Positions 4,156 through 33,146 of a stretch of DNA of 41,027 nucleotides are shown here, in pieces. Position numbers and translations under genes: made by a program. The notes beneath the pieces are model-generated. The model was not told the DNA's origin, did no database searches, and was given only the letters and a program-made list of their open reading frames with translations. This DNA is from an uncultured Lachnospiraceae bacterium (GTDB taxonomy: Bacteria; Bacillota; Clostridia; Lachnospirales; Lachnospiraceae). The stretch's first letter is position 1, and every line of letters starts with the position of its first letter. The DNA is taken from NCBI GenBank assembly GCA_947174185.1, contig CAMWHY010000008.1, positions 1-41,027 on the forward strand, read 5' to 3'.

Positions 4156-6456
4156 TTAAAACAGGTTGACCGGGTCAAAATCAAACTGCAGCATCTGACT
4201 TCCCTGCTCCATATCCTTCGTCATTCCTTCGATCCAATCCTTGCATGCGATCAGAAACTGCTTGCTCTCATGCTTGATATATAATACCGTCCGATGGATA
4301 TCATTGATCCTGGCCAACGCTGCCGGCACTGGTCCGATGATCTGCGTCTGTTCCTTTTCCTGACTTTCCGATAACAGTTCCGATATCTTATCTGCAATCT
4401 TTTGTGCCAACGCCATCCCTTCCGCTTCCTCTTTCGCAAAGATCTGCACAGCCAGCATATGCTGCACCGGCGGGTATCCTGCCAGCCGGCGGTACAAGAT
4501 CTCTTCCTGATAAAAGCTGAGATAATCCTGCTTTGCGGCATTGACGATGCCATAGTTATCCGGCTGATACGTCTGGATAACCACTTCACCCTTTTTATCT
4601 CCTCTGCCTGCTCTGCCTGCCGCCTGGGTCAGCAGCTGGAATGTCCTTTCCGCCGCCCTGTAATCTCCTACGCTTAATGACAGATCCGCAGCGATCGCCC
4701 CAACCAGCGTCGTATTTGGGAAATCATGCCCCTTAACGATCATCTGCGTACCGATCAGAACATCCGCCTCATGAGCCGCAAAAGAAGACAGGATTTTTTC
4801 ATAATCCTCTTTCTTCCGTGTCGTATCCGCATCCATGCGAAGCACCCTGACAGAAGAATACCATTTTTTTAATTCTTCTTCAATACGCTGCGTCCCGGCT
4901 CGAAAACCTGCAATATAAGACGAGCCGCATTCCGGACATTTCGTAAGCATATCCGTCTGATATCCGCAATAATGACATACCAGCTTCTGCTCCTTCTTCT
5001 GATACATGCCATTCGCATGATGCTGCGACAGGGAAACATCGCAATGTGGACATTTTACCACATAACCGCACTCTCTGCACGATACAAATCCGGCATAGCC
5101 GCGGCGGTTGATAAAAAGCATGATCTGTTCTCCCCGAAGCAGCCGTTCCAGCATCAATTCCTTTAGCTTCCGGGAAAACAAACTTTTATTGCCTTCCTTC
5201 AACTCCTTTCTCATATCCGCAATATATACCTGCGGAAGGACCGCATTCTGCGGACGATGCCTGAGCTGATATAAGTGATATTCCCCTTTTACCGCCCTAT
5301 AGTAAGATTCCAAAGACGGCGTCGCCGATCCCAGCACCAGCGCGGCATGATCTCTTTTCGCAATATATTCAGCCACTTCCCTGGCATGGTATTTGGGCAT
5401 CTTCTCACTTTTATAGCTATTTTCGTGTTCTTCATCAATCACGATCAGCCCCAACTGCATAAATGGAGTAAATAAAGCTGACCTGGGACCAATCATAACA
5501 TCCAGTTGTCCTGTTCTGGCACGTTCATACTGATCGAAGCGCTCCCCGTCGGAAAGTCTTGAATGAAGCACCGAAACCCGGTCGCCAAACCTTGCATAAA
5601 ACCGCATCAGCGTCTGAAACGTCAATGCGATCTCCGGAATCAGCACGATTGCCTGTTTCCCCATGGAGATATTTTTCTCGATCAGCTCCATGTACACTTC
5701 CGTCTTGCCGCTTCCCGTAATGCCATGCAACAGCGATACGCCCGGTTCCGTCTCCTGCATACTCTTAAAGATGCCATCCACCGCCTGCTGCTGTTCCACT
5801 GAAAGCACCGGCTTCTCAACCCTTCGGTCGCTTCTCATCAAGGGATTACGATATTCCCTTGTCGTTACGATCCGAAGGACACCCTGTTTTTCTAAAGAAT
5901 GGATCGTCGAAGGAGCCACATTCATTTTGCCGGTTACCAGCTGATAAGGCAGCTCCTTGACGGATAAAAACTCCTGCAAAAGCCTGCGTCTTGCAATCTG
6001 ACGACAGGGATGACATTTCCCTGCCAGCTCTGTCAATATCTCATCCCCAACAATACACTGTAAACATCTATACTGCTGTTCCCTGATCTTCTTTTTCACT
6101 GGCAGGACAGTCTTCATCGCCGTGATCATAGTAGAACCATAATTGCTCTTCATCCAGTAAGCCAGCTGCAGTGTCCTTGCTTCCACACTGACCGCCTTTT
6201 CATTAATAGAGATGATTTCTTTGATACGGGATTCCTCCCATTGGGATTCCTCCGTCAGCTCCATAATATACGCTTTTCTTTTACTGTCCCCCCTGCCAAA
6301 TGGTACGATCACCTCATCTCCCACCTTCGCTGTCTGCCGCAAATTTTCCGGAAGGCGGTATTGGAACAACCGGTCTACCTTTTCATGGGAGATATCAACT
6401 ATCACATTAGCATATTTATTAATATTCATCGCTTTATCCACATCTTGTAATATCAT
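4156..6456 (-). CDS. priA: Primosomal replication restart helicase PriA
   Basis: PriA recognises stalled or collapsed replication forks, unwinds the lagging strand and starts reloading of the replicative helicase. The 766-residue product has an N-terminal 3'BD-like DNA-binding region. Walker A GITGSGKT is at 245-252 and the DEEH box at 341-344. A zinc-binding insertion carries eight cysteines in pairs (C460/C463, C469/C472, C494/C497, C507/C510). The helicase C-lobe includes GTQ and QAAGRAGR. The ATG overlaps the murE stop as ATGA, which implies translational coupling. An alternative start nine codons downstream (MNINKYANVI) fits the family N-terminus about equally well and cannot be excluded. 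Confidence 0.96.
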   Translation of the reverse strand: MILQDVDKAMNINKYANVIVDISHEKVDRLFQYRLPENLRQTAKVGDEVIVPFGRGDSKRKAYIMELTEESQWEESRIKEIISINEKAVSVEARTLQLAYWMKSNYGSTMITAMKTVLPVKKKIREQQYRCLQCIVGDEILTELAGKCHPCRQIARRRLLQEFLSVKELPYQLVTGKMNVAPSTIHSLEKQGVLRIVTTREYRNPLMRSDRRVEKPVLSVEQQQAVDGIFKSMQETEPGVSLLHGITGSGKTEVYMELIEKNISMGKQAIVLIPEIALTFQTLMRFYARFGDRVSVLHSRLSDGERFDQYERARTGQLDVMIGPRSALFTPFMQLGLIVIDEEHENSYKSEKMPKYHAREVAEYIAKRDHAALVLGSATPSLESYYRAVKGEYHLYQLRHRPQNAVLPQVYIADMRKELKEGNKSLFSRKLKELMLERLLRGEQIMLFINRRGYAGFVSCRECGYVVKCPHCDVSLSQHHANGMYQKKEQKLVCHYCGYQTDMLTKCPECGSSYIAGFRAGTQRIEEELKKWYSSVRVLRMDADTTRKKEDYEKILSSFAAHEADVLIGTQMIVKGHDFPNTTLVGAIAADLSLSVGDYRAAERTFQLLTQAAGRAGRGDKKGEVVIQTYQPDNYGIVNAAKQDYLSFYQEEILYRRLAGYPPVQHMLAVQIFAKEEAEGMALAQKIADKISELLSESQEKEQTQIIGPVPAALARINDIHRTVLYIKHESKQFLIACKDWIEGMTKDMEQGSQMLQFDFDPVNLF

Positions 6457-7955
6457 CCGGCATGAGCATTAGAATTACTTTCCTCAAGTACCTCCCGGAT
6501 CAACTCTCTTTCATCCATCGGATATTTTACTCCTCTGATTTCCTGATAATCCTCATGCCCTTTGCCTGCCAGAATAATAATATCCCCCGGAAGTCCGTGA
6601 CGGATCACATAGGCGATCGCTTCCTTCCTGTCCGGGATTGTAATATATTCCCCATCCGTTTTTCCAATTCCAGTCACAATATCCGCAATAATATCCAGAG
6701 GCTCCTCCATCCGTGGATTATCGGACGTGATCACAGTCAGATCCGCCAGACGGCCGCTGACCTCTCCCATCTCAAACCGACGGAGTTTGGAACGGTTCCC
6801 GCCGCATCCGAACATGCAGACCAGCCGCTCCGGCTCATATTCCCGCAAGGTCTCCAACAGACTTTTCAGTGCCATGGCATTATGCGCATAGTCGATCATC
6901 AGGATAAACTGATTGGAAACCGGAATCATCTCGATCCTTCCCTTCACCTTCGCCTGTAGCAGCGCCGCCTGGATTCCGTCCTTGGAAACTTTAAAATGCC
7001 TGCAGATCGCCAGCGCCGTCAGAGCATTGTAAACGCTGAATGTTCCCGGAAAATACGCCTTAACATCCATCTCCAGAATTCCCTCAGCCCGGAAGGACAC
7101 TCCAAGCCGTCCGTCTTCTTTTAAGAGTTTTAGATCTGTGGCACGCAAATCTGTGGCGCGCCCCAGATGATTGTGTTCCCCCAGTCCAAAGGTCTCTACC
7201 TGACAGGTATGCCCCTTCAGGATCTGCTCACAATGTTCATCGTCTCCATTCAATATCCCGATCCTGCACTGCTGAAACAACAGACTTTTACAGTGCAGAT
7301 AGTCATCAAAATCCTTATGTTCGTTCGGTCCGATATGATCCGGCTCAATATTGGTAAATATCCCATAATCAAATGTAAAACCCGCACTCCTGTGCATCAT
7401 CAGCCCCTGGGAGGATACCTCCATCACCACGACCTCACAGCCTGCCTCCACCATCTCCGCAAAATATTCCTGCAGATAGTAGGACTCCGGTGTCGTATTT
7501 TCAGAAGGGATCGTACGCTTCCCGGTGATCGTCTCGATTGTGCCGACAAGTCCCACCTGGTATCCGGCATGTTCTAAGATCGATTTTACCAGATAGGTCG
7601 TTGTGGTTTTTCCCTTTGTCCCCGTAATACCAATCGTTTTTAATTTCTCTGCCGGATGTCCGAAATATGCCGCTGAGATACATGCCATGGCATATCTGGT
7701 ATCCTCCACGGTAACTACTGTCACCTGATCATCCGTTACAGCAACCGGTTTTTGTACCACAAGCGCCGCCGCCCCTGCTTTCACTACCTCGTCAGCCACG
7801 CTGTGTCCATCAAACTTCGCCCCCTCGATACAGATAAAAAGGCATCCCTCTACGATCTTACGGGAGTCATATACGACCGCCGTAATCTGCTTCTCTATAT
7901 TTCCCTGCACGCACTGATACGCAAGCCCGTTCAGCAATGTTTCCAATGCTGGCAT
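6453..7955 (-). CDS. murE: UDP-N-acetylmuramoyl-tripeptide synthetase MurE (meso-DAP type)
   Basis: A cytoplasmic Mur ligase that adds the third amino acid to UDP-MurNAc-L-Ala-D-Glu in peptidoglycan synthesis. It has the Mur ligase N-terminal domain and then the ATP-binding loop GTKGKTTT around residues 112-119. The central domain has the ENTTPE stretch typical of MurE. Near residue 415 the C-terminal domain carries DNPRMEEP. DNPR at this place is the established signature for meso-diaminopimelate selection, whereas lysine-adding enzymes differ, so the cell wall is predicted to be the DAP type. A TTGGAGG ribosome binding site precedes the ATG. It is the first gene of the block reading through priA to rlmN. 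Confidence 0.95.
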   Translation of the reverse strand: MPALETLLNGLAYQCVQGNIEKQITAVVYDSRKIVEGCLFICIEGAKFDGHSVADEVVKAGAAALVVQKPVAVTDDQVTVVTVEDTRYAMACISAAYFGHPAEKLKTIGITGTKGKTTTTYLVKSILEHAGYQVGLVGTIETITGKRTIPSENTTPESYYLQEYFAEMVEAGCEVVVMEVSSQGLMMHRSAGFTFDYGIFTNIEPDHIGPNEHKDFDDYLHCKSLLFQQCRIGILNGDDEHCEQILKGHTCQVETFGLGEHNHLGRATDLRATDLKLLKEDGRLGVSFRAEGILEMDVKAYFPGTFSVYNALTALAICRHFKVSKDGIQAALLQAKVKGRIEMIPVSNQFILMIDYAHNAMALKSLLETLREYEPERLVCMFGCGGNRSKLRRFEMGEVSGRLADLTVITSDNPRMEEPLDIIADIVTGIGKTDGEYITIPDRKEAIAYVIRHGLPGDIIILAGKGHEDYQEIRGVKYPMDERELIREVLEESNSNAHAG

Positions 7956-7991
7956 ATCAAATCCTCCAATGCATATTAATCTATATTATAT

Positions 7992-8018
7992 ATTATACCT
8001 ATTTTTCGCAAATGACAA
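7992..8018 (-). promoter_or_regulatory. Putative sigma-A promoter of the murE operon
   Basis: On the minus strand TTGTCA (8018-8013) is followed by TATAAT (7997-7992) at a 15-base spacing. A shifted -10, TAATAT (7995-7990), gives the optimal 17 bases. The site is about 40 bases before the murE start, and no other gene lies between. Assignment is by eye only. Confidence 0.5.
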
Positions 8019-8176
8019 GGGAATCACACTTCCTGACAAATAAACTCCTTTTTCTCTATAAAATCAAATTTTTCAACAAATTAATTATGTTTCACATTTT
8101 CAACACAAAAAAAACACACCTTTCGTATATCTTATCTATCAGATAGTGATTCACTTACTATCTCCCCCTCATAACG

Positions 8177-8201
8177 AAAACCACCGCGAAGCGGTGGTTT
8201 T
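8177..8201 (-). terminator. Rho-independent terminator after the acyltransferase-like gene
   Basis: A perfect 11-bp stem, AAAACCACCGC against GCGGTGGTTTT, with a three-base loop lies 19 bases after the stop at 8220. On the minus strand the stem ends in TTTT. The rest of 7998-8176 is A/T-rich and holds no convincing gene. Confidence 0.7.
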
Positions 8202-8219
8202 CACTCTTTTGGGAATCTA

Positions 8220-9275
8220 TCAGTTATTCTCCGGCTTTTTTCCATACATAAAACTGAGAACTCCATGAAACAGCCATAGCAGGAAAAGTTCCACAACAAT
8301 CAGGACCACGAGCATCACAACATTACGCAGAAAATCATGATCAAAGATCGCAAACACCTGATCACCGGCCAGTCCAGCAAGCGCCGCCACCTTAAAATCA
8401 AGACAAGTTGCCAGCACAATCAGGGATGACTGCCCAAGATATTCCAACGGTCTGCATTCATGAATCCATCTGCACAGAAAGAGCAGACCACTGCAAAGGC
8501 ATATCGCGGCCAGAAAATAGAAAAGCATCTCCCCGGTAAGCAGATAACGGAAGGATATCGTTACACCGGCTTTCTCCTGATTCTTCAAGGCAAGAAACGT
8601 TCCAAAGCCGGTCAAGGCAAACCCGGACAGGATCATTATCATTTTCTTTTGAGCCAGATATCCGAGCAGCATGGCAAGACCTTCCCCAACGGCACAGAAA
8701 AACATTCCTACGCAACCGCGCCATACGGTATAGACGCACTGCAGCAAAAATACCTCCACTGACATTTCCTTTCCATAAAGATATACCGGAATACCATTAA
8801 TTCCACAGATGATCGTCGCAAGAACTGCTGTAAGGATCAGCGCGATGGGATAAAACAGTTTCTTACGTATCGTCCAGTATACTGTCACACCAACGAAAAA
8901 TACAGGCAAAAACCATAGAACAGCCCCACCGTAGAAAGACAATATATCCCAGATCATAGCGATCGTATCTTCCCTTGTAAACCGCATCGGAAATAAAAGC
9001 ATACCTGCGCACCGGACAGTCACTGCCAGAAGACTCATCCAGCAATAAGGGAGCATAATCTCCTTCGCGCCCTTTCTGATGATTTCCGGCACACTCAGCT
9101 TTGATATTTCTGATTCTTTGCCATAAAGTCCCGCCGCTGTAAAAAACAGCAGCATGACAAAGGCTTCCACCCATATCTTAAATGTCTCCGGCATGATCCC
9201 CGAATAACCCAGAACCAGTATACAAATACCGACCCCCGCATAAACATTGATATATCTGTTTCCACTCTCCTGCAT
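8220..9275 (-). CDS. Acyltransferase-3-like membrane protein lacking conserved histidines
   Basis: A polytopic membrane protein of about 351 residues with roughly ten hydrophobic segments. The order of features matches the acyltransferase-3 family (O-acetylases of sugars and cell-surface polymers): a first helix ending VLGYSG, a second with FVMLLFFTAAG, and the mid-protein VLWFLPVFF motif. In active members the first two usually read LGHS and FHMPLFFxSG. Here Tyr24 and Val40 take the places of the histidines, so catalysis is doubtful. The ATG at 9275 is preferred because AGAGGA precedes it, whereas an ATG six codons upstream has no ribosome binding site. It follows recJ after a short gap, may be co-transcribed, and is closed by a terminator. 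Confidence 0.75.
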   Translation of the reverse strand: MQESGNRYINVYAGVGICILVLGYSGIMPETFKIWVEAFVMLLFFTAAGLYGKESEISKLSVPEIIRKGAKEIMLPYCWMSLLAVTVRCAGMLLFPMRFTREDTIAMIWDILSFYGGAVLWFLPVFFVGVTVYWTIRKKLFYPIALILTAVLATIICGINGIPVYLYGKEMSVEVFLLQCVYTVWRGCVGMFFCAVGEGLAMLLGYLAQKKMIMILSGFALTGFGTFLALKNQEKAGVTISFRYLLTGEMLFYFLAAICLCSGLLFLCRWIHECRPLEYLGQSSLIVLATCLDFKVAALAGLAGDQVFAIFDHDFLRNVVMLVVLIVVELFLLWLFHGVLSFMYGKKPENN

Positions 9276-9306
9276 AAGATTCCTCTTCCCCATTTTTTAT
9301 TGATAC

Positions 9307-11106
9307 TTAACAAAAATCTTCCATAATAAATTGGATGCTTTTCTGTCCCTGGTATTCATTCCACTGTGGATAAAACGCCGCAGAAAATTTCAATCCCTCT
9401 CCTCTGCCGCAAAAAACTTCCCGCACCTTTTCCTCTCCATACCGTTCTGTCAGAAAATCCTTAAATTCTTTATTTTTATCATAAAATAAAGTCAGCTCAG
9501 CCGTCCCACCATCGGTATCCCTGATTTGATACTTTCCGACCTTTCCTTCCGCCCCCAGAATCCTTGCGCGATATAGCAGCACATCCTTCTTTGCAAACAG
9601 CGGCTTTGGATTACCGTTTCCAAACGGCTCTAATAAAGAAAACTGGTCTAATAACCGGGGCGTAACGTAAGAAAACGGCACTTGCGCGTCAATACGGAGC
9701 TTCTCTTTAAAATCCGGCTCTGTCAGTCTGCTATTTTCATTCAGTCTCCGCCTCAGTTCCGCCAATTTATCTTTCGGAAGGGAAAATCCTGCCGCCTGCG
9801 CATGGCCGCCAAATTTTGTAAAAATATCCCTGACCGCTGACAATTCCCGATACATATCATAACTTTCTATCGATCTGCCCGATCCCTTTAGTCCATCCTC
9901 CGCATCTGTGATGATCAACGTTGGATGATGATACCGCTCTCTGATCCTTCCGGCAATAATACCCGCAATACTTTCATGGCATTCCGGCAGATAGATCACA
10001 TATACGGAAGATCCGTCATGTTCTCCCCGCTCGATCTGTTCCACTGCTTTTGATGTTCCCTGTTCGGTAATCGCCTTTCGGCTGTCATTCATTGCCTTCA
10101 GTTCTCCGGCAAGGCGCATCGCCTCAGATTCCTGATCTGCCATCAACAGCTCCAACGCTCTGGATGCCGTATCAATACGCCCTGTTGCATTGATGCATGG
10201 GCCTAACAGATATCCCAGATGATACGCCGTCACCGGCGAACCCCATCTGCCCATAACACTAAGCAGTGCCTTTAAACCCACATATGACGTATTGCACATC
10301 AGCTTCAGTCCTGTCTTCACCAGCGCCCGGTTCTCATCCTTCAGCTCCATGACATCGCCTACGGTCGCAAACGCCGCCAACTGCAGCATTTCTGCTTCCC
10401 GCTGACGCCAGGTCTTCTCCCAGCCATCCTCATTCAGAAGCCGCCCTGCACAACCTCCGTCCACCATGGCATATATCAGCTTATATGCCACAAATGCTCC
10501 GCAAATGCCTGGAAACGGATAATCACAGTCCTCCCGCTTAGGATCTATGACCGCCTCCGCAGGCGGTAAGAGGTATGTTTTTCTACCACCTGTCTCTTCA
10601 TAGGGCACCTCATGATGATCGGTAACGATCACAGTCATGCCAAGCTCATAGGCATAGGCGATCTCCCCTTTCGCCGCAATGCCATTGTCACAGGTGATGA
10701 CCGTATCTACACCGGCTTCTGCCGCATCCCTGATCAGATCCCTGCTTAGTCCATATCCATCCCTGACTCTGTGGGGAATCACAGCATCAGCGTCAGCCCC
10801 CAGAAACTGAAAGCCCTTTAAGAGGATCGCCGTAGAACATACGCCATCAATATCATAATCTCCGATCACCCGAAGTCTTTTCCCCTGCGCAATCTTCTCC
10901 TCCAACTTCCGGCACGCGGTATCCATATCTTTTAACAGCATAGGATCATGAAAACTTTTACTGTCGCCATAAAGATACTGAACGATCTCCTGCTCTGTCA
11001 CGACTTCCCGATTTCTGATAAGTCTGGCAACCAACGGATCAATATGATATTTTGCCCCAATCGACTGAAAATCCGCGCCCTTGGTTATCAGAAGCCACTG
11101 ATTCAT
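9307..11106 (-). CDS. recJ: Single-stranded-DNA-specific exonuclease RecJ
   Basis: A 5'-3' exonuclease on single-stranded DNA, used in recombination and mismatch or base excision repair. The 599-residue product has the DHH phosphoesterase core: GDYDIDGVCST near residue 82, ITCDNGI near 137 and TDHHEVP at 162-168. These supply the metal-binding aspartates and histidines. The DHHA1 motif GGHAQAAGF is near residue 455, and a C-terminal OB-like region follows. GGAGGAG lies just upstream of the ATG. It is divergently arranged from the trigger-factor-like gene, with a 176-base A/T-rich region between them that must hold promoters for both. Length and motifs indicate an intact gene. Confidence 0.95.
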   Translation of the reverse strand: MNQWLLITKGADFQSIGAKYHIDPLVARLIRNREVVTEQEIVQYLYGDSKSFHDPMLLKDMDTACRKLEEKIAQGKRLRVIGDYDIDGVCSTAILLKGFQFLGADADAVIPHRVRDGYGLSRDLIRDAAEAGVDTVITCDNGIAAKGEIAYAYELGMTVIVTDHHEVPYEETGGRKTYLLPPAEAVIDPKREDCDYPFPGICGAFVAYKLIYAMVDGGCAGRLLNEDGWEKTWRQREAEMLQLAAFATVGDVMELKDENRALVKTGLKLMCNTSYVGLKALLSVMGRWGSPVTAYHLGYLLGPCINATGRIDTASRALELLMADQESEAMRLAGELKAMNDSRKAITEQGTSKAVEQIERGEHDGSSVYVIYLPECHESIAGIIAGRIRERYHHPTLIITDAEDGLKGSGRSIESYDMYRELSAVRDIFTKFGGHAQAAGFSLPKDKLAELRRRLNENSRLTEPDFKEKLRIDAQVPFSYVTPRLLDQFSLLEPFGNGNPKPLFAKKDVLLYRARILGAEGKVGKYQIRDTDGGTAELTLFYDKNKEFKDFLTERYGEEKVREVFCGRGEGLKFSAAFYPQWNEYQGQKSIQFIMEDFC

Positions 11107-25404: not shown

Positions 25405-26556
25405 TTACTGCGTACGGGGTCCCAAAAGGGGATTGCCGGCTAGTAAGGGATTGGCTGCGCCAGGTCCTGTTGCAGGCTGCTGTGACATTCCATAACTTGG
25501 CTGGAAACTTTGCTGCTGCGGTGCCCCATAACTCGGCTGAAAGCTTTGCTGCTGCGGTGCTCCATAGCTCGGCTGGAAGCTCTGCTGCTGCAGTGCCCCA
25601 TAACTCGGCTGGAAACTCTGCTGCTGCGGCGCCCCATAACTCGGCTGGAAGCTTTGCTGCCGTGGCGCTCCCAATAACGGATTGGCAGCATATACAGCCG
25701 CATTCTGCTGGGGAGCATTATTGAACTGATGAGCCGGCGCTCCTAATAATGGATTCGGCGCATACGTTGGAGCATTAGACTGCGGACTCTCCATACTACC
25801 GTTCAGCGACGGCGATTCAAACATCGGTTCTGCCGGCTGTCCCATCGGTTGATTAAGCGACGGTGATTCGAATATCGGCTCTGCCGGCTGTCCCATCGGC
25901 TGATTGAGCGATGGTGATTCAAATATTGGCTCTGCCGGCTGTCCCATCGGCTGATTGAGCGACGGTGATTCAAACATCGGCGCTACTGCCGGCTGTCCCA
26001 TCGGCTGGTTGAGCGACGGTGATTCAAATATCGGTGCTGCTGCCGGCTGTCCCATCGGCTGATTCAATGACGGTGATTCAAACATCGGCGGTGTTGCCGG
26101 CTGTCCCATCGGCTGATTGAGCGACGGCGATTCAAATATCGGCTCTGCTGCCGGCTGTCCCATCGGCTGATTGAGCGACGGTGATTCAAACATCGGCGGT
26201 GTTGCCGGCTGTCCCATCGGCTGATTCAATGACGGTGATTCAAACATCGGTTCCTCACTCGGCATGACCGCTGGTTTCACTGTAGGTTGATTTAACGATG
26301 GCGATTCGAATAACGGCTGTTCTGTAGCTTCTTTTCTTGCCACAAAATCCAACTTAGGGGTATTCATTGCCGCAACCGGTTTTGCATTATATATGGAATT
26401 CAAACCGATTGAACCAAACGCATTACTCCTACCACTCTTTTTTGTATCTTTATGCATCTGCTTTACATATTTTTTGATATTATATTTACAACCCGGACAT
26501 GTTTTTGCAGTATCATCAACAATCCTCTTACAACCCGGGCACTCTAACATCGCCAT
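25405..26556 (-). CDS. Zinc-ribbon protein with long disordered tandem repeats
   Basis: A 383-residue protein starting at an ATG (26556) with GGAGG eight bases upstream; an earlier ATG abuts GAGGGG and is unlikely. The N-terminus is a small zinc ribbon, CPGC-x10-CPGC (Cys6, 9, 20, 23). It is followed by a basic patch and then almost entirely low-complexity sequence. Ten FESPSLN units of 17-18 residues come first, eight of them with NQPMGQPA. After these come NPLLGAP motifs, five 12-residue QQQSFQPSYGAP units, and a final NPLLAGNPLLGP. No membrane helix or signal peptide is present. Such proline/glutamine/aromatic-rich repeats suggest a flexible scaffold or phase-separating protein, but that is inference. 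It may be co-transcribed with the HPt and HD-GYP genes. Confidence 0.85.
   Translation of the reverse strand: MAMLECPGCKRIVDDTAKTCPGCKYNIKKYVKQMHKDTKKSGRSNAFGSIGLNSIYNAKPVAAMNTPKLDFVARKEATEQPLFESPSLNQPTVKPAVMPSEEPMFESPSLNQPMGQPATPPMFESPSLNQPMGQPAAEPIFESPSLNQPMGQPATPPMFESPSLNQPMGQPAAAPIFESPSLNQPMGQPAVAPMFESPSLNQPMGQPAEPIFESPSLNQPMGQPAEPIFESPSLNQPMGQPAEPMFESPSLNGSMESPQSNAPTYAPNPLLGAPAHQFNNAPQQNAAVYAANPLLGAPRQQSFQPSYGAPQQQSFQPSYGALQQQSFQPSYGAPQQQSFQPSYGAPQQQSFQPSYGMSQQPATGPGAANPLLAGNPLLGPRTQ
25489..25668 (-). repeat. Five 36-bp in-frame tandem repeats
   Basis: Five near-identical 36-base units encode QQQSFQPSYGAP variants in the C-terminal part of the zinc-ribbon protein. Differences are mainly at third codon positions, with one Ala-Pro to Ala-Leu change. 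Confidence 0.85.
25798..26313 (-). repeat. Ten 51-54-bp in-frame tandem repeats
   Basis: Ten units encode FESPSLN-type repeats of 17 or 18 residues. Eight central copies are nearly identical and the outer two are degenerate. The unit length varies by one codon (AEP, AAEP, TPP endings), so copy number is likely to vary between strains by slippage or recombination. Confidence 0.88.
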
Positions 26557-26595
26557 AGCTGTAACCTCCATCCCCTCATAATGATCATTAAACTC

Positions 26596-28079: not shown

Positions 28080-28380
28080 CGGCTTACTCTCCTGTCAGTT
28101 ATGTATAATATTACTACTAACCTCCATGTCGCCTTCGGTGGCTCAAATAAAATCGAAAAACGCCGCTTTCGCTGCGACTCAAATCCGGATGAAAATGCCG
28201 CTTTTAAACAAACGAGTTTGTTTTTCTTAATGCAAAAATAAATGCTGCACTTTAGCGTTCATTTTCGCCTGCAAATATTATATCATAAATTCAGAGAAAG
28301 AAAATAGTAAAGTATCATAAATATTTTTTTTGCATTTTGCACAAAGTTTCCGAAAATTATTTTTGCAGTCTGCCCCGTTC
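28080..28380. other. 301-base non-coding gap with an imperfect 36-bp repeat
   Basis: No convincing gene on either strand. Two imperfect copies of a unit containing CTCAAAT and GCCGCTTT lie 36 bases apart (about 28133-28206). A small hairpin AAACAAAC-GA-GTTTGTTT follows at 28206-28223. The remaining part is A/T-rich leader of the REC-HD-GYP gene and trailer of the genes read from 30805. Confidence 0.6.
28133..28206. repeat. Imperfect 36-bp direct repeat, two copies
   Basis: CTCAAAT at 28142 and 28178 and GCCGCTTT at 28162 and 28196 mark two diverged copies, about 36 bases apart. Only two copies are present, so this is not a CRISPR array. It may be part of a dispersed intergenic element. Confidence 0.45.
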
Positions 28381-28959
28381 TCAATCAATTCTGCCAAAAA
28401 GTAGTAAGTCGGCTTTCTTTTTATCCACCATGATTTTTTTTAAGTCTTTACGATTCAAATTTACCATTCCGTCGGAAACGCAGCGACGCACACATCTTTG
28501 AATCCCCTCTTCACGAACAAAGGCGATTTCCATCACCCAGGTTTTCTCTTTGTCATTATAGTATCCCTTCCATTCCGAAAGCGTCCCCATGGGCGGTACG
28601 ATCTTTAGATCCCACGCTTCTTTGCCCAAGTCAAATGCTTTCAGCACTTCCTCTATTTTGGAAAAGTCCTTGACCTCTTGTTCCATCCCCCTGAAGGACA
28701 GGAAAAAATGATAGTCAAGATTGGGATCGATCCGCGACATTTTAGCGTCAAAGCTTTTGTCCCAGATGATGATCCTGATTCCCAGAAATGCAATAAGAAG
28801 TCCCACTATTCCCACAATTATCCCAATCATTGACACATGGTTATCCTCAACACCAAGAAAAACCACCATGAAAATTGCAAAAATGCCCAATGTCACTAAG
28901 ATTGAGCCAAATGTAGTCCAGCTTCTGCGTTTAGAAATAAGATACATCATGGTTCTCAT
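28381..28959 (-). CDS. Hypothetical two-helix membrane protein
   Basis: Not recognised. It has 192 residues with two hydrophobic helices near the N-terminus (about 17-36 and 44-62). These are followed by a soluble C-terminal domain with YHFFSLSFRG-like beta pattern (seen as YHFFLSFRGMEQEVKDF), IVPPMGTLSEWKGYY, and a basic end (NRKDLKKIMVDKKKADLLLFGRID). The start codon overlaps the previous stop as TAATG, so translation is coupled. It forms a unit with the 161-residue and 385-residue genes upstream and lies at the end of the operon downstream of the two-component system. The function is unknown. The soluble part may sit on the cytoplasmic face because it lacks secretion features. Confidence 0.75.
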   Translation of the reverse strand: MRTMMYLISKRRSWTTFGSILVTLGIFAIFMVVFLGVEDNHVSMIGIIVGIVGLLIAFLGIRIIIWDKSFDAKMSRIDPNLDYHFFLSFRGMEQEVKDFSKIEEVLKAFDLGKEAWDLKIVPPMGTLSEWKGYYNDKEKTWVMEIAFVREEGIQRCVRRCVSDGMVNLNRKDLKKIMVDKKKADLLLFGRID

Positions 28960-29444
28960 TAATCCTGAACCACCTTTCCACCAACAGTGTGTTGGATATG
29001 CGGTCCATGTTTCTTTACAAATGCCACAAAACCATCGATCTGGCCTATGCCGATATTAAAATTAACATCCGCCTTTCCTTGCAGCATGGGCTTATCATAC
29101 TTAGGGGCTACTAAATATTCTCCACGCATAATTTTTTCATCCTTGTCACAAATACCAAATTCTCCTTTAAAGGTAGCAATATACCCAATTTCATTTAAAT
29201 TCCATTTTTTATATGCCGGCATCCATCCGGAGGGCCAAAGAAACAATAATTCCCCTTTTTCGGTAACATAAGCAGACCCATAAGCAGAATTAGCAGACTC
29301 AAATTTATCCTTGGGGGGATATTTTTCCTCTACGTCCTTAAGAAATTCATCAATGATTTTTTTACCAACCGTCTTTTCATATATTACAGCGCCGATTATA
29401 AAAATAAATAATCCTGCAACGATAGCAATTCCTTGTGGTGTCAT
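28959..29444 (-). CDS. Hypothetical single-pass membrane protein
   Basis: Not recognised. The 161-residue product begins MTPQGIAIVAGLFIFIIGAV, a single N-terminal membrane helix. A soluble domain follows with repeated short beta-like blocks (SAYGSAYVTEKGELLFLW, NEIGYIATFKGEFGICD, VNFNIGIGQIDGFVAFVKKHG). The ATG at 29444 has GGAGG eight bases upstream and is preferred over an in-frame ATG five codons earlier. The region WNLNEIGYIATFKG followed by a strand resembles a PH-like arrangement, but this is weak. It overlaps the next gene by one base. Read with the neighbours, it is part of a membrane module placed downstream of a LytTR-type two-component system. Confidence 0.75.
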   Translation of the reverse strand: MTPQGIAIVAGLFIFIIGAVIYEKTVGKKIIDEFLKDVEEKYPPKDKFESANSAYGSAYVTEKGELLFLWPSGWMPAYKKWNLNEIGYIATFKGEFGICDKDEKIMRGEYLVAPKYDKPMLQGKADVNFNIGIGQIDGFVAFVKKHGPHIQHTVGGKVVQD

Positions 29445-29550
29445 AATTATTTCCTCCATATTAAATAAATTTATGATTCAATATACTATGTAAATTCTTA
29501 TAAAACCATAGTCCTAATATTTTGATTTTCCTTAACCGATAACATATCTT

Positions 29551-29619
29551 TTAAATTTGCTCCTTTTTAAAAATTTTCTTCAATTCATCTTCAAGCCACT
29601 GCAATGAAAGTTTTTGCAT
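29551..29619 (-). CDS. Possible 22-residue small protein
   Basis: A short frame encodes MQKLSLQWLEDELKKIFKK and three more residues, a strongly amphipathic helix. It starts 29 bases after the stop of the 385-residue gene, with AAGGAGGG upstream of the ATG. The 12-base spacing is longer than usual. It could be a small regulatory or membrane-associated peptide of this operon, or a chance frame. No leader or processing site like that of AgrD is visible. Confidence 0.3.
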   Translation of the reverse strand: MQKLSLQWLEDELKKIFKKEQI

Positions 29620-29647
29620 TGTTTCTAATAACCCTCCTTCTCGCCTG

Positions 29648-30805
29648 CTATTTCTTTTTCTCCTGCGTTATATCTATGATTGGAACCCTGCAATCCTCCA
29701 AGGCTTTCAGTGTCAGTCCTATATTATGCCGGTCCTTTACAGGCAGCACGATTTCTTTCCCGTTTTTCAGGCGGAAATAAACATCCTGTACTATAAACCG
29801 ATACCTAAGAGTTCCCCACGTATAGTACACATAAGCGATTTCCCTGATTTGTTCCTTTGGAATAGCAATCGGATCGAATACCATGGGATTTAGCGACGCA
29901 CCTGCTAGTGAACCAATAATATAACGATCTGAAATTACCAGGTTATGTTTTTTCATAAACGGCAAACCCTTATTTAAGTCTGCCTGTAGCTGTTCTAAAA
30001 AATCCTCCCCGACATTTGACAGATATGTATTTGCGTTCTTGATGATTTTATCCTTTTCATCCTTCTTTTTAGCCTTCTTTCGAATCAATGTAATGATGCC
30101 CAAAGGAATCATCACAAATATAATGCATAAAATGACAATCCCTATACCCAAACCTATTTCTGTTATGACCTCCGTCGAATAAAGAGCAACAAGAGCAAAT
30201 GAATAAATAATACCCATCATTGAACAAATTAGGATAATAATAAAATTCAATCCCCAAAATTCCCTCAACTGAAAGATGATTTCATGCAGTTCCAGCGCTC
30301 TCTTATCCTCCGGAGCATACCGATATTTGCTCGTGTCAATTGTCTGCTTACTTTTTTTATTATGAATGGCTTTAACCATAACTATAAAAATATCACCTAT
30401 AATCAATATCAATATTCCATATCGAAACATCTGACTGTTATAATAATACAAAGACAATATCGATCTGCCACTCTGGGTCACACCTATAACCTTGTGGGAG
30501 TTTGTATTAATAAATACATTTCTTTTTATAGAATCACCATCGTATATCATACCTTTGATCTCATATTCACTGGCTCTTCCAAACACAGCAAAAGCCGGAG
30601 CCCAAAACGACTCCTGTGGGTCATCTTCATACTCCAGCTTAATATACCTTGTTGAGTTACGGTATTCCATTTTAACAGGGATCAGCTCCACACGCTTTTC
30701 AACCTTAATATGTACCCCGAATTGTGCCAACAAGGTAATCACTATAAATCCCAGAAAAATAAAATTCACAATAAAAATTTCATAATTCTTTTTTATAAAA
30801 TTCAT
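29648..30805 (-). CDS. Hypothetical four-helix membrane protein with possible PH-like C-terminal domain
   Basis: Not recognised. A 385-residue protein with hydrophobic segments at about 9-29, 128-148, 190-213 and 218-242. The first loop (about 30-127) is a beta-rich extracytoplasmic domain. The last 110 residues (ISDRYIIGSLAG, IPKEQIREIAYVYYTW, VQDVYFRLKNGKEIVLPV) have the strand-then-basic-loop look of bacterial PH-like domains, which is only a resemblance. AAAGGAG precedes the ATG. The 129-base gap upstream contains a promoter-like element and the pair of 16-base direct repeats that also lies before the two-component operon. It heads a unit with the 161- and 192-residue genes and is A/T-richer than the kinase genes. 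Confidence 0.8.
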   Translation of the reverse strand: MNFIKKNYEIFIVNFIFLGFIVITLLAQFGVHIKVEKRVELIPVKMEYRNSTRYIKLEYEDDPQESFWAPAFAVFGRASEYEIKGMIYDGDSIKRNVFINTNSHKVIGVTQSGRSILSLYYYNSQMFRYGILILIIGDIFIVMVKAIHNKKSKQTIDTSKYRYAPEDKRALELHEIIFQLREFWGLNFIIILICSMMGIIYSFALVALYSTEVITEIGLGIGIVILCIIFVMIPLGIITLIRKKAKKKDEKDKIIKNANTYLSNVGEDFLEQLQADLNKGLPFMKKHNLVISDRYIIGSLAGASLNPMVFDPIAIPKEQIREIAYVYYTWGTLRYRFIVQDVYFRLKNGKEIVLPVKDRHNIGLTLKALEDCRVPIIDITQEKKK

Positions 30806-30856
30806 TTCTAAACAGACTCCTTTGTAATTTTTTTGCCAACTTTGACCTGCATATAA

Positions 30857-30928
30857 AATTTACCCCGGTGCCGTCTGTTTTCCAACCTGAATTGCACCAA
30901 ATGACTATTTTGTTGCACGAAATGACCA
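30857..30928 (-). promoter_or_regulatory. LytTR-type direct repeats and promoter before the membrane module
   Basis: On the minus strand, TGGTCATTTCGTGCAA (30928-30913) and TAGTCATTTGGTGCAA (30907-30892) are direct repeats 21 bases apart. Downstream, TTGGAA (30885-30880) and TAAATT (30862-30857) make a 17-base-spaced promoter, with the -10 starting 29 bases after the repeat pair. The same repeats occur before the regulator gene. Two direct repeats with this spacing are typical of LytTR response regulator sites. Confidence 0.65.
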
Positions 30929-30934
30929 TAACAT

Positions 30935-32233
30935 TTATAAAATCACCACCGTCTGGAACTTTTCCTGGTCACAGGAGATTGCAAAGTCGCCACCATATTT
31001 ATCCACCACAGCCTTTACGTTTATAAGACCCACACCGTGCATCTCTCCGTCGGAATCCAGAACAATGCCGTCCTTGATCTGCACTTTTTCCGCCACGGGA
31101 TTCTTTACGGAAAAGATCATCTTTTCGCCCTCCTGCACCAGCTTAATATTTATGACGGCTTTACGTCCTGCGCTTACGACCTTCACGCACTCATGGATGG
31201 CGTTGTCAAGCAGGTTGGAAAGCAGGATTACCGTCTCCTCCCCATCCAGCCGCATCCCGCTCATGTCGCCTACCCTGAAAATCATGGACACCCCCTGTTC
31301 CCTCGCAACATGGAACTTCTGGTTCAGGACTGCGTTCACGACAGGATGGTTCGTATTGACCGCCGACATCTCCACGGATATACTCTCCGTCAGCTTCTCT
31401 GCAAGCGCGGCAGCAGCCTGCGTGTTCCCTTCCTTTAACAGCACCTGTATCGTCCTTATCTGGTTCTTGTAATCATGCATCTTCCGTCCCTGCCGCTCAT
31501 AGACCGCCTGCATATCCCGGTAATGCGCAAGCTGGCTTTCCTTCTTCTGGTCTGACAGCGCGTTTTCCCTTAACAGCTCCCCCTTATCACGGATGCTCTT
31601 CATCACCGCCATCACAAGGAAGTTTATCATGATCTGTCCCGCCGCAATAAAAAGATAGATTGCCTGCACCTTTTTTTCGCGGATGTAAAAAGAATACATA
31701 GGCAGCATGGATGCCACAGTGAACAGCGGCACTACGCAGAATTTCTGCCATTCCTTATAGGAAAGTTCCTTATTATTTTTCTTCCCTTTCCATATCCTCT
31801 GCAATATAAATAGCAGGAAAACCCAGACCAGCTTTGCGAGCAGTCCCAGAAAGATAATGCCGGACGCATATTCTTCCTCCTTGGCTATCAGTATGTTTTC
31901 AACCTGTAGTGAAAAGAAGTCTATCAAATACAACAGCGGATAATACAGTACAAAAAAGAAAATACACTGCTTTAACTCCATCTTATAAAACACCGCGCAG
32001 AATGCTGTGAATACCAAGACTACCAGCGTAATCTTGATTCCCATTGGCCCCAGATATTCCCCCGGAAATGCAGCGACAAAGTTAGCAAGGTACAGAACAA
32101 TATATCTGCACTTATCCTGCCATCCCTTCCGTTTCCTTTTCATAAACATATCAAAAAAGTAAACGATCCCCCACGTCTCTATCGCTATGAGGCATAAAGA
32201 AAGTATCCACATTCCTATTTCTTCTATTTCCAT
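30935..32233 (-). CDS. Sensor histidine kinase, AgrC-like (GHKL family)
   Basis: A 432-residue membrane kinase. The first 210 or so residues form six or seven membrane helices without a large extracellular domain, as in peptide-sensing AgrC/ComD-type kinases. A dimerisation helix follows with KMHDYKNQ, where His253 is the expected phosphorylation site. The GHKL ATPase comes next, with the N box LLSNLLDNAIHEC, then GMHGVGLINVKAVVDKYGGDF (the G box). The ATG at 32233 has GGAG five bases upstream and follows the regulator stop by two bases; an earlier GTG that overlaps it is less likely. The stimulus is unknown because no agrB- or agrD-like gene is present in the window. It is transcribed with the LytTR regulator. 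Confidence 0.92.
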   Translation of the reverse strand: MEIEEIGMWILSLCLIAIETWGIVYFFDMFMKRKRKGWQDKCRYIVLYLANFVAAFPGEYLGPMGIKITLVVLVFTAFCAVFYKMELKQCIFFFVLYYPLLYLIDFFSLQVENILIAKEEEYASGIIFLGLLAKLVWVFLLFILQRIWKGKKNNKELSYKEWQKFCVVPLFTVASMLPMYSFYIREKKVQAIYLFIAAGQIMINFLVMAVMKSIRDKGELLRENALSDQKKESQLAHYRDMQAVYERQGRKMHDYKNQIRTIQVLLKEGNTQAAAALAEKLTESISVEMSAVNTNHPVVNAVLNQKFHVAREQGVSMIFRVGDMSGMRLDGEETVILLSNLLDNAIHECVKVVSAGRKAVINIKLVQEGEKMIFSVKNPVAEKVQIKDGIVLDSDGEMHGVGLINVKAVVDKYGGDFAISCDQEKFQTVVIL

Positions 32234-32235
32234 AA

Positions 32236-32931
32236 TCACTCCGCCCCCTTGTACAATGTGTACTGCCGCTTCACTTCCTGATACCTTGATTTCGGTACGG
32301 ATATCTCCTTCCCCGTGGTCAGGACCATGATATAGCTGCTGATCCTCTCGATGTATTTCATGTTGATAAGGAAGCTCTGGTGTATCCGCACAAAGCCCAT
32401 TCCCTTCAAGTCCTCTTCCAGCTCATCCATCTTTTTATAAATGCTGAATGTCTTTCCCTGCGTGTAAAACACATTCTTGTGTTTACTCGTTTCAATATAG
32501 ATGATGTCGTCCACCTTTAGCCGCATATTCCCCTCCACGAAGCCGAACTCCACCACCCGATCCTCCTGCTGGATTTCCCAAAGGATATCATCCATGCATT
32601 CCTGCAAGGTCTGATCCAGGTCATCTTTTAAAAGGAAACGGCTCGCCTTCACCTTGTATCCATCCAGCGCATAATTCACATAAGCAGTGACCAGTACGAT
32701 ATGCACCTTCGGGCATTCTGCCTTTATCTGTCTTGCTGTCTCCAAGCCATCCATGCCATCCATGTTGATGTCAAGGAATACGATGCGGCATTTCCGTATA
32801 TAGTCCATATCCCTACACAGACTTTTCCCGGAGCCGTATTCCTTTATTTCAAAATCCTGACCGCAGGCTTCCAGCAGCGCCTTAAGTGTACCGCGGTCAT
32901 CCTCCTTGTCATCGCAGATTACTATCTTCAT
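32236..32931 (-). CDS. LytTR-family response regulator (AgrA-like)
   Basis: A 231-residue response regulator that binds DNA through a C-terminal LytTR domain. The receiver domain has CDDKEDD (Asp7/Asp8), the phosphorylated Asp54 in FLDINMDGMDG, Thr82 in VTAY and Lys102 in LLKDDL. The LytTR domain covers about 130-230, with DIIYIETSKHKN, KTFSIYKKMDELEEDL and FVRIHQSFLINMKYIERI. A ribosome binding site GGGAGG lies upstream of the ATG. It is the first gene of the operon with the kinase. Direct repeats of the LytTR type lie upstream of its own promoter and upstream of the membrane module at 30805. This implies autoregulation and control of that module. Confidence 0.94.
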   Translation of the reverse strand: MKIVICDDKEDDRGTLKALLEACGQDFEIKEYGSGKSLCRDMDYIRKCRIVFLDINMDGMDGLETARQIKAECPKVHIVLVTAYVNYALDGYKVKASRFLLKDDLDQTLQECMDDILWEIQQEDRVVEFGFVEGNMRLKVDDIIYIETSKHKNVFYTQGKTFSIYKKMDELEEDLKGMGFVRIHQSFLINMKYIERISSYIMVLTTGKEISVPKSRYQEVKRQYTLYKGAE

Positions 32932-32952
32932 CGTACCAACCTCCCATCAAAC

Positions 32953-33024
32953 ATAATATTGGATTATAGGGAACCTTATCAAATTTCATTGCACGAAACT
33001 CCCAATTATTGCACCAAACGACCA
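32953..33024 (-). promoter_or_regulatory. LytTR-type direct repeats and promoter before the two-component operon
   Basis: On the minus strand, TGGTCGTTTGGTGCAA (33024-33009) and TGGGAGTTTCGTGCAA (33004-32989) are direct repeats 20 bases apart. Two -10 candidates follow: TATAAT at 32968-32963 and TATTAT at 32958-32953. The second has the same distance (30 bases) from the repeats as at the other site (29). No good -35 is visible, which fits activator dependence. Confidence 0.65.
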
Positions 33025-33101
33025 TAATCACCACTCACATATTACTTTCCAGTTTATTTAAGCTATCAGTTCGCCACATTTGTATTTTAAAAATCAAAAA
33101 A

Positions 33102-33146
33102 TAAAAAGTCCAGAATGCTTGGCTTACCAAGGTTTCTGGACTTCTT
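33102..33146 (-). terminator. Terminator of the tRNA transcript
   Basis: On the minus strand GAAGTCCAGAA pairs with TTCTGGACTTT, and a nested CTTGG/CCAAG stem closes the loop. A T-rich tail TTTTTATTTTTT follows. It is directly after tRNA-Met. Confidence 0.85.

Follow-up and report, generated by a model that had tools for sequence, protein, structure and literature searches.

A GHKL/LytTR two-component cassette with a private operator and a candidate membrane-protein output in an uncultured Lachnospiraceae bacterium

What does an Agr-like two-component system control when no gene for its signal is recognised beside it? The question is raised by a 41,027-nucleotide stretch of contig CAMWHY010000008.1 (the window), from an uncultured Lachnospiraceae bacterium whose assembly comprises 2,963,768 bases and is 97.45% complete. 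Positions 28381-33024 hold a row of five minus-strand genes, first a response regulator (RR), then a histidine kinase (HK) and last three genes for membrane-associated proteins (M1, M2 and M3), all of them where a first-pass annotation of the sequence had placed them. The row is flanked by a stretch containing clpB, tRNA-Val and tRNA-Met and by an HD-GYP gene (clpB and the HD-GYP gene were named by eye). On the comparisons presented here, we consider it likely that RR and HK form an Agr-like cassette without signal genes that controls a single membrane-protein module.

RR (32236..32931, minus strand) encodes 231 residues with a receiver domain (Response_reg, 7.4e-16) and a LytTR DNA-binding domain (LytTR, 9.1e-21), and HK (30935..32239, minus strand), which begins at a GTG codon and overlaps the RR stop, encodes a polytopic kinase of 434 residues with a GHKL ATPase domain (HATPase_c_5, 1.5e-17). 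This is the composition of an AgrC/AgrA-type pair, and paired direct repeats 5′ of its own and of a target promoter, also characteristic of that type, are present as sequence. The locus is not an Agr system in the strict sense. RR scores 37.5 bits against the curated AgrA equivalog NF046049, for which the cut-off is 400, and the interval from clpB to the HD-GYP gene contains no recognised gene for AgrB, AgrD, a bacteriocin or an exporter in a search covering open reading frames (ORFs) of at least 60 residues, profiles of the five proteins and the minus-strand frames of four gaps, in agreement with the first-pass annotation. AgrB genes do occur elsewhere in the assembly (1.6e-30 and 5.8e-35 in L059 and L060; loci are cited by L numbers and genomes by G numbers).

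The three genes that follow were identified as membrane-associated by hydropathy. M1 (29648..30805, minus strand) encodes 385 residues with about four membrane segments, and its topology would place a loop of about 90 residues behind the first segment and a domain of about 140 residues at the C-terminus. M2 (28959..29459, minus strand) has one N-terminal membrane segment and reads 166 residues from its first ATG or 161 from its second; GGAGG lies just 5′ of the latter, the start is probably there, at 29444, and the 161 residues of the earlier reading are probably right. M3 (28381..28959, minus strand), whose start overlaps the M2 stop, encodes 192 residues, with a pair of membrane segments near the N-terminus and about 125 residues forming a C-terminal domain.

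The pair and the module share a direct repeat, GTCATTTSGTGCAA twice at a period of 20-21, that stands 5′ of both RR and M1. Operator 1, before RR (32989..33022, minus strand), reads GTCGTTTGGTGCAA-6-GGAGTTTCGTGCAA, and operator 2, between HK and M1 (30892..30926, minus strand), reads GTCATTTCGTGCAA-7-GTCATTTGGTGCAA; both were located by pattern search, and their GTCRTTTSGTGCAA-like units are set 20 bases apart before RR and 21 before M1. The earlier observation that M1 lies behind the same repeats as RR is thus confirmed, and at the spacings and tolerances searched the two pairs are unique in the assembly. Exact core pairs with a period of 19-23 number two, both at this locus (none for the reversed-pattern control), and a 14-base repeat pair with at most 3 mismatches in 28 positions recurs at one place each for periods 20 and 21, the same two sites. 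A weight matrix likewise found no pairs in 50 mononucleotide shuffles of the window, and the pattern searches are the stronger test because the training sites of the matrix came from the window, L003/L004, L014, L017, L052 and L053, loci that are described below.

The arrangement of these operators relative to the candidate promoters argues for activation by RR, without proving it. The putative RR promoter, TTGATA-18-TATTAT (32953..32982, minus strand), has its -35 hexamer six bases past operator 1, and four loci (the window, L014, L053 and L017) conform to TTGATA-18-TAT(A/T)AT at the same distance; in L052 and L054 the corresponding promoters read TTAACG-20-TATAAT, four bases past the operator. 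Promoters of the genes behind HK, referred to here as cargo, have weak hexamers (at best 7-8 of 12), which fits the expectation for activated promoters. In Staphylococcus, according to an excerpt of PMC4227749, AgrA binds direct repeats 5′ of the P2 and P3 promoters, which have spacers of 18 and 20; the proximal repeats there centre near -60. Terminator-like sites in the region are in some excess over shuffled sequence (8 versus 3.8). Distant kinase paralogs (29-31% identical), in L036, L043, L049 and L051, have a sister operator, with GTCRTTTTCTGCAA-like pairs at a period of 20; this suggests that related operators exist which vary at a few positions.

A scan of genome contigs with M1 returned two loci, L003 and L004, both from Lachnospiraceae metagenome-assembled genomes, and the order RR-HK-operator-M1-M2 is kept in each; the loss of synteny across relatives that the first-pass annotation had named as counter-evidence was not seen. 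RR is 91-92% identical in the two loci and HK 90-97% by BLAST; the two halves of HK, compared separately, are at 95-98%. M1 is 83-84% identical in L003 and 76-77% in L004, M2 is 94-95% identical in both, and M3 is 89% identical in L003, the L004 contig stopping short of it. L003 carries a second M2-like gene (61-66%) and a gene for 220 residues between M2 and M3. Its similarity to the window spans about 28377 to 33115, with gaps, and it has neither clpB nor the two tRNAs, all of which L004 has in common with the window. Both operator 14-mers before M1 are identical in all three loci which, together with the synteny, supports the proposal that the membrane module is wired to an AgrC/AgrA-like system. 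M1-M3 are under purifying selection, with ratios of nonsynonymous to synonymous substitution rates (dN/dS) against the window of 0.25-0.35 (M1 0.34-0.35), and those of RR and HK are 0.07-0.19 (RR 0.16-0.19). Between L003 and L004 the ratios are 0.36 for RR and 0.13 for HK. The region 5′ of RR is altered in both relatives (L003 5749-5879, L004 5761-5946): the degenerate distal repeat is kept, and the proximal copy and the RR promoter have been deleted, apparently between TGGGAG repeats. With the M1 operator intact and the RR operator damaged, L003 and L004 provide a natural test of the need for autoregulation.

The same switch is found with other genes behind it in other genera. When 299 family genomes were searched with HK (E 1e-30), 27 gave a match, seven of them at 52% identity or above, the window's own included (G000, G268, G047, G264, G122, G029 and G074, those in G029 and G074 being partial), and the contigs of these matches were read as L014, L052, L053, L054, L055 and L056. 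Searching the 299 genomes for the operator gave six places in five genomes; two of these were discarded because no such system follows them, the match in G220 being a short tandem repeat and that in G047:C24 falling within a long reading frame. L052-L056 were picked by HK similarity only, L014 by both searches and L017 by its operator, so that L017 is not independent evidence for the latter. The operator pair stands 5′ of RR in seven of nine readable loci (the window, L014, L017, L052, L053, L054 and, more weakly, L055), the exceptions being L003 and L004, and shortly 3′ of HK in all seven readable loci (the window, L003, L004, L014, L052, L053 and, more weakly, L056).

Behind the second operator lie M1-M2(-M3) in three of those seven loci, sets of small-protein genes in three, and a 693-residue surface-like protein in one, L056, in which HK is truncated and no RR was seen. 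The set of L014 includes DUF3879 (3.5e-50) and DUF4885 (1.7e-54) proteins, that of L053 a 222-residue protein 86% identical to one of L014, and the first cargo protein of L052 is 97% identical to the first of L053; no DUF3879 match was obtained among the five proteins scanned in L053 or the two in L052, and their link to L014 is by BLAST only. Compared with the window, HK in L014, L053 and L052 is 81-90% identical over its kinase half and 51-61% over its N-terminal membrane half; faster change in the sensor half is as one expects of a changing receptor. By eye, and by profile search of part of the ORFs, no agrB or agrD was recognised beside these three loci.

For one pair of loci, the window and L014, the place of the exchange can be narrowed down. 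Their sequences align closely between the end of HK and the far side of the operator, and the M1 leader with its ribosome-binding site (30806..30891, minus strand) is homologous to the post-operator leader of L014 up to the ribosome-binding site (local alignment score 56, reached by none of 2000 shuffles). Over the first 300 coding bases similarity is lost, 415 of 500 shuffles scoring as high. At the level of sequence comparison, it is therefore well supported for the window and L014 that the coding cargo was exchanged while promoter and leader were kept; beyond this pair, the other loci have the operator alone in common. M1-M3 look like the newcomer, because small-protein sets are known here from three genera and M1-M3 from three closely related loci, and we would favour that direction of the swap. 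We put forward more tentatively the wider proposition that RR/HK with operator, leader and ribosome-binding site make up an exchangeable expression slot, a self-contained sensing cassette dedicated to a single operator that the rest of the chromosome lacks, in which unrelated gene sets replace one another across Lachnospiraceae precisely at the start codon, and that M1-M3 are a new three-part membrane machine occupying it here. The unusual output anticipated by the first-pass annotation is specific to the lineage of the window, and the regulator is not tied to this module, since different genes stand behind orthologous RR/HK pairs and operators in three other genera.

Several of these loci are irregular in ways of their own. 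Similarity ranks relative to the window disagree between the two regulatory genes (L053: RR 80%, HK 64%; L052: RR 63%, HK 72%), which may reflect recombination between them. In L055 (2176-3823, G029), RR and HK appear fused in one frame at the contig end, and in L017 (4587-5654) RR is cut after about 43 residues, where its frame continues as a terminase-like protein (by eye), either a phage insertion or an assembly chimera. Behind more distant RR/HK pairs in L057 and L058 (kinase 31-34% identical) lie large proteins that start MSIAGLG, together with other small proteins, as a further class of cargo.

From these observations we infer the following chain of events. An outside cue, probably a peptide made elsewhere, would be sensed by the polytopic N-terminal half of HK, which would then phosphorylate RR. 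Phosphorylated RR would bind two direct repeats two helical turns apart at each of two promoters and would activate rather than repress, raising both its own operon, as feedback, and M1-M2-M3. Operator and leader would belong to the cassette, behind which related genera carry small-protein sets (in L014 with DUF3879 and DUF4885), and in the lineage of the window the coding cargo past the start codon would have been replaced by M1-M3. The products of M1-M3 would reach the membrane and there most likely modify or shield the cell envelope, for instance in stress or immunity. Envelope protection, or immunity, is a possibility we hold with some hesitation; we prefer it because of the membrane location, the lack of a catalytic family, gene loss and duplication in the cluster, and the surroundings of the relatives.

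A number of findings weigh against this reconstruction. By our own count the repeats would centre near -50, as opposed to near -60 in Staphylococcus, and a sigma-70 scan of the region gave no excess of sites (14 versus 14.8 in shuffles). Damage to the RR operator and promoter in L003 and L004 means that feedback is not essential there, and not every copy of the system need be active, as the L004 kinase is missing 22 residues of its sensor and the L053 kinase a stretch near the ATP lid. The M1 leader is clearly homologous only to that of L014, the scores for L053 and L052 being reached by 227 and 49 of 2000 shuffles, respectively. Full-length M1 was found in one of 397 genomes of the family, the window's own, plus L003 and L004. 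Finally, M1-M3 have no recognised fold or function, which makes the output step a guess.

The lack of a recognised family for the three proteins, noted from the sequence at the outset, has withstood profile searches: in Pfam and NCBIfam none of M1, M2 and M3 reaches the curated cut-off of any family, PADLOC and PDB sequences gave no credible match, and the clear match to a known family that might have overturned the earlier reading was not found. The best weak matches are MAG1210 for M1 (E 0.00047, 18.9 of 275 bits) and SLATT_6 for M3 (E 0.0037, 17.3 of 27.1 bits), and PADLOC returned one match, to the M3 helices (E 0.023). M3 was considered as a SLATT two-transmembrane effector and rejected, the SLATT_6 match being below cut-off and confined to residues 18-59, the membrane helices. 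A DUF3592-like N-terminus of M1, suggested by eye, has no Pfam match. Pleckstrin-like C-terminal parts of M1 and M2, likewise seen by eye, found no support when profiles of the M1 C-terminus, M2 and the M3 C-terminus were compared with one another (E 0.12-0.4), a weak test given very shallow alignments. AlphaFold models had a mean predicted local distance difference test score (pLDDT) of 40.8 for M1 (3-row alignment) and 45.1 for M2 (4-row alignment).

Partial relatives of the three proteins are scattered. The N-terminal half of M1 occurs alone in G022 and G344, and a relative of M3 in G022 is 63% identical and fused to an extra domain; one row of that genome (L015, 917-5746) holds the fused M3 homolog, Hsp70, a DnaJ-like protein and the M1 N-terminal half, with no kinase in the stretch read. 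M2 has a relative in G047 (44-45% identical), just 5′ of a short ORF whose product has a glycoside-hydrolase-like domain (Rv2525c, 4.4e-20), and near a further ORF that is pretoxin-like by eye and has no Pfam match; the same stretch (L016, 3194-8278) has a TmtA-like gene (PADLOC, 1.9e-111) and an 89-residue protein with zinc-ribbon-like cysteines. Weaker similarities were not accepted as kinship: M1 profile matches in 12 of 15 matching genomes lie over the membrane stretch (E 4e-5 to 0.0044), as does largely that of M1 to a 226-residue G047 protein (23% over 83 residues, E 0.026), and neither the M2 match in G189 (30%, E 3.8e-4) nor the M3 match in G116 (21%, E 4.6e-6) is claimed as a family member. 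A mobile-element origin found no backing either, M1 being without match in plasmids and viral contigs, M2 in phages and viral contigs, M3 in viral contigs, and HK in plasmids at E 1e-30.

What M1-M3 do is where the strongest alternative applies, and it is a version of the output step rather than of the wiring. It holds that they are an immunity or self-protection island like those beside Blp/Agr-type bacteriocin regulators, here without a toxin gene of its own. The proteins are small, membrane-bound and without a catalytic family, and the cluster shows turnover of its genes: an 86-base remnant (29555..29640, minus strand), 83/86 bases of which match a gene intact in L004 (blastn 2e-37), is all that the window keeps of a 229-residue gene that is broken in L003, and L003 has its second M2-like gene and the 220-residue gene. 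The Rv2525c-domain and pretoxin-like ORFs beside the G047 relative of M2 point the same way, as does the variable immunity region under two-component control in pneumococcal blp (PMC6422914, in excerpt). Against this, Pfam and NCBIfam searches of the five proteins recognised no bacteriocin, toxin or known immunity family at the locus, and in G022 the neighbours of the M3 relative and of the M1 N-terminal half are Hsp70 and DnaJ-like genes instead. We regard an immunity island as quite possible, short of probable.

It is unlikely that M1-M3 are not an output at all and instead feed back on HK, as accessory proteins that modulate the kinase or process its signal. Adjacency, the common operator, membrane location and the lack of a recognised agrB-like processing gene nearby would suit such a role, but the orthologous RR/HK pairs of L014, L052 and L053 have other genes in that place, no M1 was found in those three genomes at E 0.001 (with a weak profile match in G268, E 0.0013), and relatives of the M1 N-terminal half and of M3 occur in G022 and G344 with no such kinase in the stretches read. 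Least likely is an accidental neighbourhood, with the M1 operator a leftover and M1-M3 driven otherwise, for which the variation of cargo among genomes and the lack of a strong sigma-70 promoter 5′ of M1 could be cited, but the M1 operator 14-mers are identical in three loci while M1 dS is 0.26-0.50, gene order is kept, and it is the RR operator, not that of M1, that decayed in L003 and L004.

Compared with known systems, the cassette we favour, in which RR and HK control M1-M3, most resembles Agr (AgrBDCA), having a polytopic GHKL kinase, a LytTR regulator, paired direct repeats 5′ of long-spacer promoters, apparent autoregulation and a second target promoter. It differs in its lack of a recognised agrB or agrD, here and in L014, L052 and L053, in its membrane-protein output and in an RR far below the AgrA cut-off. 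Pneumococcal blp (BlpRH), as described in part of PMC6422914, likewise has a two-component pair beside variable small-protein cargo that is under one operator. Here, in contrast, no pheromone, transporter or bacteriocin gene was recognised, M1-M3 are unrelated to the families scanned, and the combination of a bacteriocin with its cognate immunity protein was not found among the five proteins profiled. LytTR Regulatory Systems consist of a regulator plus a membrane inhibitor. They too link a LytTR DNA-binding domain to membrane proteins (PMC6193735, in excerpt), whereas RR has a receiver domain and a histidine kinase partner, and the membrane proteins follow as apparent targets.

Closer to home, locus L069 of the window's own assembly (6383-10229) holds a LytTR-type regulator, a kinase, an AgrD-like ORF (by eye) and an AgrB-like gene that falls below the curated cut-off, followed by a DUF3879 gene. 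As in L014, the LytTR/GHKL pair thus lies shortly 5′ of DUF3879; unlike the window, L069 has AgrB-like and AgrD-like candidates, and BLAST matches of its RR and HK to the window's show an identity of only about 21-23%. Six places with DUF3879 were read in a sample of 99 genomes, to which L014 adds a case from outside. Three lie shortly past LytTR/GHKL or kinase genes (L069; L212, behind a kinase fragment 70% identical to that of L069; and L214, one gene past an RR/HK pair), L213 and L215 are not after such genes, and L216 is at a contig edge. Elsewhere in the window, at 25405-26571, lies a gene for a 388-residue protein with a zinc-ribbon-like N-terminal motif and many copies of a MFESPSLNQPMGQPA-type repeat.

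Regulation by GHKL/LytTR pairs is a known kind of system. A variant that lacks signal genes, has an operator to itself and carries an exchanged membrane output was not found described in open-licence papers, among the matches listed, and excerpts of PMC5945754 and of PMC6222199, the latter on an OmpR-family regulator, have no bearing on it; nor did we find such a paper combining LytTR, Lachnospiraceae and direct repeats, or any match for DUF3879 or DUF4885 in that literature, so far as it is open-licence. The locus offers a compact and testable case of a regulator that keeps its switch and changes its output, with regulator and operator orthologous across genera and the genes behind them not. 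It predicts a regulon of one locus, in which a membrane module of three uncharacterised families would be induced by whatever HK detects. For DUF3879 genes, their LytTR/GHKL neighbours provide a first regulatory context.

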